DNA from: Gammaproteobacteria bacterium
Lineage (GTDB): Bacteria > Pseudomonadota > Gammaproteobacteria > Steroidobacterales > Foliamicaceae
Direction: 5' to 3'
NCBI GenBank assembly: GCA_009844425.1
Contig: VYBN01000046.1
Coordinates: forward strand, 1 to 64,000
DNA length: 64,000 bases
Shown: piece after piece, positions 9,808-41,842 of the stretch
How the letters are laid out: the number at the start of each line of letters is the position of its first letter
Numbering within the stretch: the stretch's first letter is position 1
Position numbers and translations under genes: made by a program
Notes under the pieces: model-generated
Database searches by the model: none
Told to the model about the DNA's origin: nothing
What the model saw: the letters and a program-made list of their open reading frames with translations, nothing else

Positions 9808-11033
<1,226 letters not shown>

Positions 11034-11886: not shown

Positions 11887-12016
11887 ATTGCAAACAAATT
11901 CCAAGGAAGAATGTCCTCGCTTGTTCGTCCAAGCGAGAATAGCTAGTTCCCGCCAAACAAGACTGTTGTATTCAGCGAGTAACCCGACCAAGCGGGACTC
12001 GGAATTTGTTTGCAAT
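11887..12016. repeat. Nested inverted repeats, MITE-like or structured element
   Basis: ATTGCAAACAAATTCC (11887-11902) is the exact reverse complement of 12001-12016. Inside is a perfect hairpin, CTCGCTTG (11916-11923) and CAAGCGAG (11930-11937), and further partial pairings (TCCCGC with GCGGGA). The region lies upstream of the CsgG-like gene and has no convincing gene. It could be a non-autonomous mobile element or a regulatory structure. The repeats are seen; the role is inferred. Confidence 0.5.
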
Positions 12017-37552: not shown

Positions 37553-37658
37553 GCCGTTTCCCGCCTTGTTCCTGCGGGAGTATGTGAGCCAGGGATGGCG
37601 GAACCAAGCCCCATGGATGGGTTCATGCGTCTCCCGCAGGAACAAGGCGGGAAACGGC
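37553..37658. repeat. Stem-loop element with conserved core, copy 1
   Basis: Perfect 28-bp inverted arms (37553-37580 and 37631-37658) around a 50-base core. The core matches the reverse complement of 41762-41811 at 46 of 50 positions, but the arms are unlike those at the other copy beyond the inner GGGAG. It lies in the space between hyuB and PrpD, 20 bases before the PrpD start. Confidence 0.85.
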
Positions 37659-37683
37659 GCAATCGAAGCGGGGCTGGCGCCAC

Positions 37684-39516
37684 TCATGCTGTCTCACCGG
37701 CTTGTTTGCGTCGCAGGGACTCCGTAGCTGCAAGGTCCGGCGCGCCGGTTTCCGGGTCGATCACGACGCCGTATTGTTCGCGCGCCTCATCGCTCGACAG
37801 CAGCCCGTCGAGCACGTTGTCGGCCACGAGCCGGGGATCGCGCTCAAGCGGGTCGCCGTAGCCGCCGCTGGACACCAGCGTGATCTCCAGCCGGTCGCCG
37901 GCCTCGAAACGGGCGTGCGACACCTTGGCGGGCAGTTCCTGCTCGTCGGGAGTGCCCGGATTGACCTTCACCTGGCCGGGCAGCCCGTCGCCGCCGCCGA
38001 AGATGCCGCGCGGCGGGTCGCCGGAACGGTTATCGCCGGTGGAACTGACCGCGGCGCCCTCGAGGAAGCGCCAGGTCTTGACCGCGCCCATGCCGCCGCG
38101 CCAGCGTCCGGGGGCCGGCGCTTCGTCGCGCAGCTCATAGCGCTCGCAGAGCATCGGCGCCGACAGCTCCATCTCCTCCAGCGGGTTGTTGCGGGTATTG
38201 GCCATCAGCGTGTCCACGGTGTCGAGGCCGTCGCGCCCATGACGGCCGCCGTACGAGCCCTCGTTGATCTCGACGTTGATCTGGTACTTGCCCCGGTACG
38301 ACTCGAACGAGTACACGAAGCACGAAACGTTGGCCGAGTTGCCACCGGTGACGCGCTGCGGCAGCGCCTCGCTCAGCGCCGCCAGGACCTGGTCGGGGAT
38401 CCGGTTGATCTGGGTGAAGCGCGCCTCGCAGCCGCGCGGGTAAATCGGGTTGAAGATGCTGCCCTTCGGCGCGTGGGCATAGACCGGGCGGAAAACGCCG
38501 TCGTTCTGCGGCACGCCCGCGCCCTCGGCGGTCTCGTCCAGCAGCAGGGCCCGCACCGCGAAGTTCACCGCCGGCAGCACGCTGCCCTCGAACGGGCAGT
38601 TGAAGCCGGTCGCGGTCTGCGGCGTGGAGCCGGTCAGGTCCACGCAGATGTCGCCGCCGCGCACCAGCACCTTCGTGGCGATCTTCAGCGGCTTGCCGAA
38701 ATGCTTGCCGTCGTCCTCCAGCCAGGCGTCCGGCGCCGGGTACTCGCCGTCGGGCAGTTCCTCGATCCGGGCGCGCATCCGCCGCTCGGCGTAGTTCATC
38801 CACTCCTCGGCCGCGCTCATCACGCGGTCCAGGCCGTGCTGCGCGACGAGCCCGGCGAAACGCTGCTCGCCCAGCCGGCAGCAGGCGATCATCGCCTCGA
38901 GGTCGCCGGCATTGGCCTCGGGCGTGCGCACGTTGTCCATGATCAGCGACCAGAGGCCCTCGCTCCGTTCGCCGGCGGCGTGCAGCTTTACCGCGTCGAG
39001 GATCTGGCCCTCGGCGAAGAAGTCCGGCACGTCCACCGAGAAACCGGGGTCGGCGGCGCCGATGTCCACCATGTGGCCGGTGCAGCCGGCGAAACCGACA
39101 TGCACGTCGCCCACGAACAGCGGCAGCAGCACGCCGTAGTCGGGACTGTGCGAAGCGCCGTGATACGGGTGGTTGTGAAGATATACATCGCCGGGCCGGT
39201 AGCGCCCGCGGTGCTTGCGGTCGATGCCGCGCACGTAGGCGGGCAGGGAGCCGCAGTGCATGGGCGTGGAGTCGCTCTCGCACAACTGCCGGCCGTCGAA
39301 GTCCAGCAGCGCCGCGCCGATGTCGCGCGACTCGCGCATGACGCTGGAATAGGCCATGCGCACCAGGAGTTCGGCCATTTCGTGGGCGACGGAGTGCAGC
39401 GCGCCGCCGATCACCTGCAGCGAGACGGGGTCGACGTCGACGCGGTTCCAGCGGCGGTCGGCGTGCGCTCCCAGTCCGGTGCTGCGCGCCTGGTCGAGTC
39501 CGGGCCAGAGGCTCAT
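37684..39516 (-). CDS. hyuB: Hydantoinase B/oxoprolinase-family subunit
   Basis: A 610-aa HyuB-type protein, partner of HyuA in ATP-dependent N-methylhydantoinase/5-oxoprolinase-like enzymes that open lactam or imide rings. DPVSLQVIGGALHSVAHEMAELLVRMAYSSVMRESRDIGAAL is the classical N-terminus; GDVYLHNHPYHGASHSPDYGVLLP and ERYELRDEAPAPGRWRGGMGAV are conserved. It lies 22 bases after the hyuA stop with a REP-like repeat between and overlapping. Complete length. Confidence 0.92.
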   Translation of the reverse strand: MSLWPGLDQARSTGLGAHADRRWNRVDVDPVSLQVIGGALHSVAHEMAELLVRMAYSSVMRESRDIGAALLDFDGRQLCESDSTPMHCGSLPAYVRGIDRKHRGRYRPGDVYLHNHPYHGASHSPDYGVLLPLFVGDVHVGFAGCTGHMVDIGAADPGFSVDVPDFFAEGQILDAVKLHAAGERSEGLWSLIMDNVRTPEANAGDLEAMIACCRLGEQRFAGLVAQHGLDRVMSAAEEWMNYAERRMRARIEELPDGEYPAPDAWLEDDGKHFGKPLKIATKVLVRGGDICVDLTGSTPQTATGFNCPFEGSVLPAVNFAVRALLLDETAEGAGVPQNDGVFRPVYAHAPKGSIFNPIYPRGCEARFTQINRIPDQVLAALSEALPQRVTGGNSANVSCFVYSFESYRGKYQINVEINEGSYGGRHGRDGLDTVDTLMANTRNNPLEEMELSAPMLCERYELRDEAPAPGRWRGGMGAVKTWRFLEGAAVSSTGDNRSGDPPRGIFGGGDGLPGQVKVNPGTPDEQELPAKVSHARFEAGDRLEITLVSSGGYGDPLERDPRLVADNVLDGLLSSDEAREQYGVVIDPETGAPDLAATESLRRKQAGETA

Positions 39517-39520
39517 GATC

Positions 39521-39585
39521 GGAGTGAGGGCACTGCCCTCACAGCGTCTCGCCTTCCCCGAGGGCGGGACGCCCTCGCTCCCAGG
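39521..39585. repeat. Twin-hairpin REP-like repeat, copy 8, forming the hyuA 3' end
   Basis: Stem units GTGAGGGCACTGCCCTCAC, a CGTCTCGCCTT half and GAGGGCGGGACGCCCTC, then CTCCCAGG. The hyuA frame runs through the repeat and stops in it. Confidence 0.8.
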
Positions 39586-41662
39586 AGACGCCCGTGCTCC
39601 CGGGGGTGAGGCGGAGGTTGGAGTAGCGGTCCACGCTCGCCTGCCAGCCCGGAGGGATCGCGGTGGTGGTGTCGGGCTGCTCGACGATCGCGGGGCCTTC
39701 GATGCGGTGGCCCGGACGGAGAGCGGAGCGTCGGTAGAACGACGTGGTCAGCGCCTTGCCGGCGCCGGGGAAGCGGCAGGGCGCGGTCAGCAGCGGCTCG
39801 GCGTCGCCGGCGGCCTCCTCCTCGGCCCGGGCCGAAACCAGCGGCGTGCCGGGCACATACGCGGACACGCCGAGATTGATGACCCGCACCGGCATGTCCG
39901 GGTAGGCGCGCAGATAGGCGCGCTGATGTTCGGCGTCGAAGCGCTCGCGCAGCGCCTCGGCCCACCCGGCATCGATGTCGCCGGGCGGCGCGTCCACCGC
40001 CAGTTCGTTGCCCTGGCCGGCATAGCGGCACTCGGCCCAAAGTTTCAGGCGCACTTCGTCCGCGCCGAACCCGTCGCCGGCCAGCCGCTGGGTGGCTTCC
40101 TGCGTCATCTCATCGAACCGGCCGGATACGGCCCCGTAATCCAGGTCTTCCAGATCGCCCCAAAGCGTTGCCTTGAACTCGTAGCGCACCTGCGCGCACA
40201 ACAGCCCGCCGGCCGCGCCCACGCCGGGGTGCGGCGGGATCAGCACTTCGCCGATGGCCAGCGCTTCGGCCACCGGCGCGGCGAAGGCCCCGCCCGCGCC
40301 GCCATAGGCTACCAGCGTGAATTCGCGCGGGTCAAAGCCCTTGGACACGCTGGCCAGGCGCATCGCCTCGACCATGTTGTTGACCGCGATATCGAAGATG
40401 CCTCCGGCGGCGTCCTCCAGCGTCAGCCCGAGCGGCTCCGCGACCCGCCGGCGGATGGCGTCGCGGGCCCGGTCGGGCGCCAGCGAGGGGACGGCGTCCG
40501 CGAGGTGGTCGGCGCGGTACCAGCCGCTGACCAGCAGCGCGTCGGTAACCGTGGGCCGGTCGCCGCCCTTGCCGTAGCAGGCCGGGCCGGGATCGGCGCC
40601 GGCGCTCTGCGGGCCCACGCGGAACATGCCCTCGGGGTCCAGCCAGGCGATCGAGCCGCCGCCGGCGCCCAGCGTGGCGATATCGACCATCGGCGTCATC
40701 ACGTCGTAGTCGCCGACGCGGGTGTCGAGCAGGCTGCGCATGCGCATTTCGCCGTTGGGCGCCACGCCGATGTCCGCGGAGGTCCCGCCCACGTCCAGCG
40801 TGATCACGTTCCTGCGCCCGATTTCCGCGCCCGCCTCGATGCCCGCGATCAGCGCGCCGACCGGCCCGGAAAGCAGGAGATTGACCGGCCGCCGCCACGC
40901 CTCCGCGGGGGCGACCATGCCGCCGCTGGACGTCATCAGGCGCAGTTGCGCCGGCACGCCCGCCTCGTCGAGCGCGGCGGCGAACCGGCGCACGTAGCGG
41001 CCGGTCACCGGGCCCACGTAGGCGTTCATCGCGGTGGTGGAGAAGCGCTCGTATTCGCGCACCAGGGGCGCGATCTCGTGACTTGCCGTGACGTAGGCCT
41101 CGGGGAACTCGCGCCGTGCGATATCCGCGATGCGCCTCTCGTGTTCCGGGTTGAGGAACGAGAAAAGGCAGCAGACCGCGATGGATTCGACGCCCTGTTC
41201 CCTGAGCAGCGCAACGGCTTCGAGCACGTCGTCCTCGTTGAGCGGCACTTCCACTTCGCCGTCGGGCGCGCGGACCCGCTCGCGCACCGTAATCCGCCAG
41301 CGGCGCGGCGTCAGCGGGCGGCTCTGGCGGGCGATCTCCTGGTAGTGCGAGAAGTTGTACGGACGGTCCTTGCGCCCGATGTGCAGGACGTCGCGGAAAC
41401 CGCGGGTCGTGATCAGCCCGGTCCTGGCGCCCTTGCGTTCCAGCAGCGCATTGGTGGCCACGGTCGTGCCGTGGCAGCAGAATTCGATGTCGGAGAAGTC
41501 GAGGCCGGCCTTGCGCAGCAGTTCCTCCGCGCCCTGCATGGCGGCGCGGGACGGGTCGTCCGGGGTGGAGGCGAGCTTGTGGGTGGCCAGCACCTGTCCG
41601 TCGCGGCCGGCGGCGATGAGGTCGGTGAACGTTCCGCCGATGTCGATGCCGATACGCGCCAA
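39539..41662 (-). CDS. hyuA: Hydantoinase A/oxoprolinase-family subunit
   Basis: About 707 aa ATP-binding subunit. ARIGIDIGGTFTDLI is the phosphate-binding opening, CCHGTTVATNALLERKGARTGLITTRGFRDVLHIGR is the family's second motif, and TLDVGGTSADIGV and GAGGGSIAWLDPEGMFRVGPQSAGADPGPACYG follow. It couples ATP hydrolysis to ring opening with HyuB. Start choice: TTG 41662 (MARIGID) fits relatives; a GTG at 41710 is possible. The last 16 residues (VSWERGRPALGEGETL) are encoded by the REP repeat. Confidence 0.9.
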   Translation of the reverse strand: MARIGIDIGGTFTDLIAAGRDGQVLATHKLASTPDDPSRAAMQGAEELLRKAGLDFSDIEFCCHGTTVATNALLERKGARTGLITTRGFRDVLHIGRKDRPYNFSHYQEIARQSRPLTPRRWRITVRERVRAPDGEVEVPLNEDDVLEAVALLREQGVESIAVCCLFSFLNPEHERRIADIARREFPEAYVTASHEIAPLVREYERFSTTAMNAYVGPVTGRYVRRFAAALDEAGVPAQLRLMTSSGGMVAPAEAWRRPVNLLLSGPVGALIAGIEAGAEIGRRNVITLDVGGTSADIGVAPNGEMRMRSLLDTRVGDYDVMTPMVDIATLGAGGGSIAWLDPEGMFRVGPQSAGADPGPACYGKGGDRPTVTDALLVSGWYRADHLADAVPSLAPDRARDAIRRRVAEPLGLTLEDAAGGIFDIAVNNMVEAMRLASVSKGFDPREFTLVAYGGAGGAFAAPVAEALAIGEVLIPPHPGVGAAGGLLCAQVRYEFKATLWGDLEDLDYGAVSGRFDEMTQEATQRLAGDGFGADEVRLKLWAECRYAGQGNELAVDAPPGDIDAGWAEALRERFDAEHQRAYLRAYPDMPVRVINLGVSAYVPGTPLVSARAEEEAAGDAEPLLTAPCRFPGAGKALTTSFYRRSALRPGHRIEGPAIVEQPDTTTAIPPGWQASVDRYSNLRLTPGSTGVSWERGRPALGEGETL

Positions 41663-41730
41663 GTTGCCCGCGCCCCTTCGCGCGCCGATAAAGACCGCGA
41701 ATTTTCGCACACTGACGGTTACGGCTGGCG

Positions 41731-41842
41731 CGCTGGTTCCGTTACAGGGCCCTTCCGGGAGACGCATTAATCCATCCATGGAGCTTGGTTCCGCCATCCC
41801 TGGCTCACACACTCCCGGAAGGGCCCTGTAACGGAACCAGCG
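41731..41842. repeat. Stem-loop element with conserved core, copy 2
   Basis: Perfect 31-bp arms (41731-41761 and 41812-41842) flank a 50-base core (41762-41811) that is 46/50 identical to the reverse complement of the core at 37581-37630. It sits between the divergent hyuA and MmgE/PrpD genes, so a simple terminator role is unlikely. Confidence 0.85.

Follow-up and report, generated by a model that had tools for sequence, protein, structure and literature searches.

What keeps the two arms of a hairpin complementary when their sequence is free to differ from copy to copy? The question arises from the first 64,000 nt of contig VYBN01000046.1 from a gammaproteobacterial assembly (hereafter the window), in which a first-pass annotation had described two stem-loops with a common core and unrelated, error-free arms. 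The perfect inverted arms are there as described (37553-37580 with 37631-37658, 28 bp; 41731-41761 with 41812-41842, 31 bp), and the two 50-nt loops are identical at 46 of 50 positions once copy 2 is reverse-complemented, leaving four differences (Table 1). That the arms are unrelated is true of the window pair, in which alignment is weak beyond GGGAG/CTCCC, but not of the whole family, as some copies of the same genome have up to 23 of 24 arm bases in common. Since these hairpins are the longest two of four inverted repeats in the entire window (at least 18 nt, within 200 nt) and all 41 copies in the own genome have inverted arms, they exceed what would be expected by chance. Against covariance model R1, element 1 scores 129.3 bits. 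Inverted repeats are also present at 2622-2709 (20 nt, 95%, 48-nt spacer, no match to model R1) and at 11887-12016 (19 nt, 95%, 92-nt spacer), the latter about 1.1 kb from an ALIL pseudoknot (10639-10755, RF01497, 100 bits), usually a frameshift signal in IS3-type elements. A second kind of dispersed repeat lies at about 39510-39605, where the alignments of three congeners (G001, G003 and G006) skip about 88 nt; this stretch has matches at other places in G006.

Table 1. Features of the two hairpins, in coordinates of the window
Feature	Position	Strand	Details and basis
Element 1, complete hairpin	37553..37658	+	28-bp perfect stem including GGGAG/CTCCC, 50-nt loop; GGA strand +
Element 1, left variable arm	37553..37575	+	arm comparison among copies
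Element 1, conserved 60-nt core (GGGAG...CTCCC)	37576..37635	+	41 matches in own genome
Element 1, CsrA-type hairpin 1, GCC[AGGGAT]GGC	37588..37599	+	sequence; conserved across copies
Element 1, CsrA-type hairpin 2, CCC[ATGGAT]GGG	37610..37621	+	sequence; stem covaries CCC/GGG, TCC/GGA, TAC/GTA
Element 1, right variable arm	37636..37658	+	arm comparison
Element 2, complete hairpin	41731..41842	-	31-bp perfect stem, 50-nt loop; GGA strand -
Element 2, conserved 60-nt core	41757..41816	-	core search, own genome
Element 2, CsrA-type hairpin 1, GCC[AGGGAT]GGC	41793..41804	-	sequence, hexaloop scan
Element 2, CsrA-type hairpin 2, TCC[ATGGAT]GGA	41771..41782	-	sequence, hexaloop scan
Element 2, variable arm, 3' arm of GGA strand	41731..41756	-	arm comparison
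Element 2, variable arm, 5' arm of GGA strand	41817..41842	-	arm comparison

The two hairpins belong to a family. When the own genome (G000, 3.03 Mb in 50 contigs) was searched with the 60-nt core, 41 matches were obtained, a figure that may be a floor, with 40 of 114 first-look candidates scored; in each of the 41 copies the inverted arms, GGGAG/CTCCC included, span 27-32 bp, the left arm being pyrimidine-rich in general. At the DNA level, the core was found in the own genome and in all eight congeners and was absent from 30 members of the order that belong to other genera. A covariance model of the family matched all nine genomes of the genus, the own genome included. The 149 matches obtained from the best 150 of 1207 candidates are no clean count, and a palindromic stem can match the model on both strands, as element 1 does; among the matches listed, 57 rows above 113 bits (counted by eye) fall in the own genome. 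Outside the genus, an exact 24-base pattern retrieved 55 stretches from genome_contigs, in Marinobacter and in gammaproteobacterial metagenome assemblies, and 13 Marinobacter genomes gave 17 to at least 40 matches each (E≤0.1), although these genomes had been picked via core-bearing loci, so that 13 of 13 is no frequency. When the class (presumably Gammaproteobacteria) was sampled evenly, model matches occurred in 17 of 185 genomes (own included), every one in another family. Ten of 13 loci inspected individually (11 from the class, two from Marinobacter) displayed a stem of 25-45 bp enclosing a loop of 46-58 nt, eight of the ten with two GGA hexaloops and two with one; at the remaining three (L227, L228, L230), no such stem was detected with fixed centring. 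In total, 245 places were collected, corresponding to 195 distinct contexts, and 68 of 74 Marinobacter elements entered the comparison in which a flanking motif was noted (see below), the rest being duplicates or edges. Neither outcome by which the first-pass annotation would have been refuted was seen: cores come with arms, the arms pair while varying among copies, and no one arm sequence is common to all.

Several members have peculiarities of their own. Close element pairs in inverted orientation occur at L041, L068, L076, L085, L089, L093 and L120 (e.g. own C43:18646 and 18779); the cores of L068 and L215 have an additional hairpin-like insertion within loop hairpin 1; L236, which is a related element from a different family of the class, has a 45-bp perfect stem; and the Marinobacter hairpins L137-L206 tend, by eye, to be bracketed by a motif near CTCCAAAGTT in direct repeat.

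Judged from its sequence, the loop carries two hairpins of the CsrA/RsmE recognition shape, namely A-N-G-G-A-N hexaloops with a C-G closing pair. Two or more GGA hexaloop hairpins are present in 92 of 116 elements of the own-genus type and in 75 of 79 of the Marinobacter type, and in none of the reverse complements; 24 of the 116 own-genus-type elements are without two recognisable hexaloops. Wherever a hexaloop was found its first base is A while the N positions vary, and the element loops conform to the ANGGAN consensus, in which A and GGA are fixed and N is free. One study gives an ANGGAN hexaloop and RUACARGGAUGU as what CsrA/RsmE recognises (PMC7652899). The small stems of these loop hairpins covary (GCC/GGC with GGC/GCC; CCC/GGG with TCC/GGA and TAC/GTA), and the own genome has a csrA gene (86.2 bits, cut-off 27).

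Besides, the elements appear, on sequence grounds, to be divergent relatives of the Rfam motif TwoAYGGAY (RF01731). This motif matched in nine of 13 genomes at E≤0.1 and in none of 14 control genomes, and two Marinobacter places (L218 and L219) lie above the curated cut-off of 43 bits, with 47.7 and 44.3 bits. In the own genome, the best of eight matches scores 33.5 bits, and five of the eight fall on elements listed by the covariance model; copy 1 of the window has no match at E≤10, and neither window copy is among the eight. AYGGAY-like terminal loops within one structure are present (ATGGAT, ACGGAC), as is an external stem around the two hairpins, including at L218 and L219; the Y of AYGGAY is not strict, since many loops read AGGGAT or AAGGAC. 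Rfam matches to eukaryotic microRNAs were below cut-off and taken as generic long-hairpin matches.

The two hairpins are enclosed by a stem of about 27-32 bp, which in these comparisons is largely free in sequence. Pairing is a property of the individual copy: over 24 arm positions in the 41 own copies, arms pair at 96.4% in cis and at 47.6% in trans. In the 41-copy alignment, 98.1% of cells are paired vs 71.0% after shuffling, 30 of 35 stem pairs have changes on both sides, 374 cells are double-changed, and covariation is 0.726 vs 0.175 shuffled and 0.11-0.15 slid. We then compared orthologs, defined as non-identical pairs from different loci whose flanks both match to within 60 nt, and counted arm changes over a spanning forest of 51 such pairs. 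Changes in both arms outnumber those in one arm by 115 to 16 (of 576 positions) at 4-10% flank divergence, by 103 to 9 (of 498) at 10-15% and by 39 to 5 at 15-20%, while the single pair below 4% (3.7%) gave 2:2. Separate second mutations would predict mostly single changes at short distance; beyond this closest pair, the opposite is seen. Among Watson-Crick-to-Watson-Crick double changes, 145 of 281 are transversion-type, for which there is no route through G-U, and G/T occupies only 23 of 2448 cells (about 1%). Thus, as far as sequence comparison goes, the loop is conserved, the arms vary yet pair almost perfectly, and the arms at one locus change together.

A further case comes from ten Marinobacter genomes in which an orthologous element, just after valS, is read in frame as part of a panE-like gene and separates the GAGSLG motif from the remainder of the ApbA domain (one of the ten, L141, was dropped from the ortholog cluster by the pair filter). 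The reading frame is open through the element in all ten genomes, and about 37 residues are added to the ApbA domain (L137-L146; e.g. L140:702-1724, element at about 1466-1571). Here the mean difference in the core is 0.013, and 0.000 at its 18 third codon positions, whereas the rest of the gene differs by 0.103 at positions 1 and 2 and by 0.317 at position 3, which argues that the core is held at the nucleic-acid level and not by the protein. The arms differ by about 0.20 without the gene's third-position excess and hence do not seem to be held by the protein either. Their variable positions mirror each other so that pairing is kept, and the locus-specific core variant is retained 10/10 while the arms change. 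In other ortholog sets, too, pairing is kept while arms change. The GGA strand is antisense to the panE-like gene.

Could selection on an RNA stem account for all of this, with pairing restored by independent second mutations and loop inversions being rare accidents or assembly errors? Such selection has points in its favour: the core is conserved at a fixed locus down to third codon positions, the stems of the loop hairpins covary, and non-Watson-Crick events on the GGA strand comprise 44 G.T and 11 A.C (p about 9e-6; 32 vs 9 outside the inner eight pairs). As symmetric DNA copying predicts equal numbers of G.T and A.C, copying is not the whole story. Selection on the fold of the GGA strand would give this bias, as would cytosine damage of that strand, and both causes suggest that this strand at times undergoes transcription or is single-stranded. 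From the G.U excess and the unchanging core, selection on the GGA strand appears to act or to have acted. As the sole keeper of the pairing, however, it seems to us rather unlikely, because the ratio of two-arm to one-arm changes has already reached 7:1 at 4-10% flank divergence, half of the double changes are transversions that cannot pass through G-U, G/T intermediates are scarce, stems of 25-45 bp, mismatched at few positions or none, go beyond any obvious need of an RNA, and loops invert between arms that are common to both orthologs (see below).

The first-pass annotation had raised, as an alternative to selected pairing, a mobile element that copies adjacent target DNA into an inverted second arm and so makes a new palindrome at each target. 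It is true that identical cores can carry unrelated arms and that elements are present or absent at orthologous sites. Element 2 is present in congener G005, absent in G001, G002, G003, G006 and G007, and replaced by other filler in G004; element 1 is present in G006, absent in G001, G002, G003, G004 and G007 (in G003 and G004 according to alignment coordinates only), and replaced by other filler in G005. Nevertheless, in all nine tests of element-free loci (four for element 1, five for element 2), the best match to an arm was at, or in one case one base above, the shuffled range, so that neither arm is found at the sites that would have supplied it. Among dispersed own copies, the left arm is common at 20 or more of 24 positions in 20 of 820 pairs, and up to 23/24 arm bases are held in common, from which it follows that arms can travel with the element; besides, arms change at fixed orthologous loci without new insertion. 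An element building palindromes from its target is therefore unsupported, and we regard it as extremely unlikely. The junctions of element 2, inspected by eye, show no target-site duplication, and the differences in presence between congeners may reflect insertion or loss.

Further evidence comes from the orientation of the loop. In nine of 30 ortholog clusters, the loop occurs in both orientations relative to the flanks. Four of 15 flip pairs have clearly common arms, with 19-24 of 24 positions matching in both arms: L116/L013 (24 and 23), L183/L175 (23 and 21), L018/L208 (20 and 20, which lies between the 95% and 99% points of the null, 19 and 21) and L136/L088 (20 and 19). The 95% points of the null are 19 for the own-genus type and 17 for the Marinobacter type. 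L018 is element 2 of the window; its counterpart in G005 agrees with it in the outer ends and has related arms, but the loop is inverted. Between palindromic arms, a loop can be placed the wrong way round in assembly, notably from short reads, and some flips may be such artefacts; on the G005 side this is less likely, given that G005 is a single 3.1 Mb contig. In the remaining flip pairs arm similarity is weaker or absent, and the two largest clusters (nine and eight members) are without a flip.

Flips and concerted arms could also have been imported ready-made if ectopic gene conversion from copies in the same genome replaced arms and loop together. Some orthologs do differ wholesale, L122/L088 and L154/L199 being examples with 12-14 double changes, and pairs with unrelated arms occur in two mixed-orientation clusters (L010 and L119 vs L101; L159 vs L154). 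Most changes, by contrast, are single, scattered doubles, 88 of 118 runs having length 1 in pairs with up to eight doubles, and at the ten-genome locus the core variant stayed in place while the arms around it changed. We thus judge such conversion to be quite unlikely. Even less probable, indeed very unlikely, is a REPIN/RAYT or another transposase-driven MITE whose hairpin is a transposition substrate, with pairing selected in single-stranded DNA: high copy number and presence or absence between congeners would fit, whereas 15 of 16 element-bearing genomes, the own genome included, have no Y1 (RAYT) transposase (PF01797; present in one of the 16), and variable outer arms with a conserved middle are the opposite of a MITE. 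Two further candidates were set aside. A site-specific inverton would have common repeats recognised by a recombinase, and here arms differ from locus to locus; integron attC sites have conserved GTTRRRY/RYYYAAC ends, and none appeared, by eye, in the arm column frequencies.

Template switching between the arms, on the sequence record, is the best-supported process. We accordingly hold it to be likely that the hairpins are a dispersed TwoAYGGAY-like element in which arm-to-arm template switching keeps the stem paired and flips the loop, and whose GGA-strand RNA is putatively bound by CsrA. When replication meets the hairpin, the polymerase would switch template between the two arms, and a new mutation in one arm would be copied onto the other (homogenisation); an intermolecular form of the switch would invert the spacer. 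If arms are copied in this way, stem pairing would be kept mainly by DNA copying and not by separate compensatory mutations. The GGA strand would at least sometimes be transcribed and bind CsrA, selection on this RNA would keep the loop and add the bias of G-U over A-C in the stem, and dispersal to new sites could carry the arms along. CsrA binding, expression and a cellular role of the elements are what we infer. Of the two options in the first-pass annotation, each thus survives in part: a copy process is well supported, running from arm to arm within an existing element and not from the target flank into a new arm, and selection appears to act on the GGA strand, with the pairing itself kept mainly by copying.

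Certain observations speak against this explanation. The window copies lie below the reach of TwoAYGGAY, and about a fifth of the own-genus-type elements (24/116) lack two recognisable hexaloops. The wobble asymmetry (44:11), the wholesale arm differences, the unrelated arms in two mixed clusters, the 2:2 ratio in the closest pair and the absence of flips from the two largest clusters likewise count against it. Finally, there is no strand preference, and at the Marinobacter locus studied in most detail the GGA strand runs antisense to its gene, an unexpected arrangement for an mRNA element.

Gene context, taken from an approximate home-made gene finder, bears on this last point. Elements are often placed after gene ends in both groups: in the own genus (n=86), 21 are convergent, none divergent, 18 tandem sense, 20 tandem antisense, 18 inside and nine edge; in Marinobacter (n=73), the corresponding numbers are 22, 9, 12, 10, 18 and 2. 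Relative to tandem genes there is no strand preference in either group (18 vs 20; 12 vs 10), on which ground we rejected an mRNA element tied to gene orientation; flipping of the loop agrees with this result. In the window, MmgE/PrpD and hydantoinase B genes flank element 1, which is antisense to both, and element 2 lies between divergent hydantoinase A and MmgE/PrpD genes (Pfam), so that zero divergent cases in the own genus is an undercount. Ten of the 18 Marinobacter 'inside' elements are the panE-like locus and real; at the other eight, all of one locus, the open reading frame seems to have been over-extended upstream of a signal-peptide-like start. A further, doubtful idea, to which we give only a small chance, is that the loop flip constitutes a recombinase-free switch: between convergent genes, inversion would pick the 3' transcript that displays the two putative CsrA sites, and self-copied arms would maintain it indefinitely at dozens of loci. 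If true, CsrA control of neighbour genes would be reassigned by replication errors.

The pairing of long stems despite sequence change is an old puzzle. With this family comes a large collection of natural replicates, some of them in cultured Marinobacter strains, in which the fixed loop reports orientation and the free arms report copying. It suggests that DNA copying can be the source of much covariation, which is usually read as the mark of selection on an RNA stem, and TwoAYGGAY-like RNAs would, on this view, be dispersed elements of high copy number in several gammaproteobacterial families.

Among known systems, TwoAYGGAY (RF01731, clan CL00106) is close in architecture, with two A-Y-GGA-Y-type loop hairpins inside one outer stem. 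In the consulted parts of the literature it is listed for human gut, gamma-Proteobacteria and Clostridiales (PMC2864571) and proposed to bind CsrA, its external stem being 'not well conserved' (PMC4333381); those parts make no mention of high-copy dispersal, concerted arm change or loop inversion, nor did the wider literature searched, as far as its accessible text goes, describe dispersal, concerted stems or flips for TwoAYGGAY-like elements. The window copies, in turn, do not reach the cut-off of the family. Unlike the elements described here, which number dozens, are dispersed and have two putative sites within a long stem, the Csr/Rsm sequestering RNAs (CsrB/C, RsmX/Y/Z) are the products of one to a few sRNA genes. 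What both have in common are GGA hairpins with ANGGAN hexaloops, recognised by CsrA/RsmE in the former (available text of PMC7652899). The in-frame element of the panE-like gene differs from Rickettsia palindromic elements in sequence, in its CsrA-type loop hairpins and in its free arms that change in concert. Rickettsia palindromic elements likewise lie within genes, as palindromic repeats in frame inside protein genes. Small hairpin-loop inversions occur in chloroplast DNA between related species, where a loop between inverted arms inverts as it does here; to our knowledge, they do not form a dispersed family with a conserved loop and free arms.

The nearest mechanistic parallel is quasipalindrome correction by template switching, which, in the text available to us, homogenises the arms of inverted repeats and inverts spacers in place (PMC8604942) and is put forward as a way in which RNA hairpins arise and persist (PMC8794818). 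The same source describes compensatory change combined with loop inversion as the strongest possible support for template switching, and as extremely rare, its rRNA table holding six cases (PMC8794818). The elements agree with this process in that concerted arm changes exceed one-arm changes (except in the pair below 4%, 2:2) and that a spacer is inverted between the same arms. They differ from the published switches, as far as the sources at hand describe them, in scale: where the inverted spacers reported there are a few bases long, here it is a 50-nt loop, in a repeat family that provides many natural replicates.
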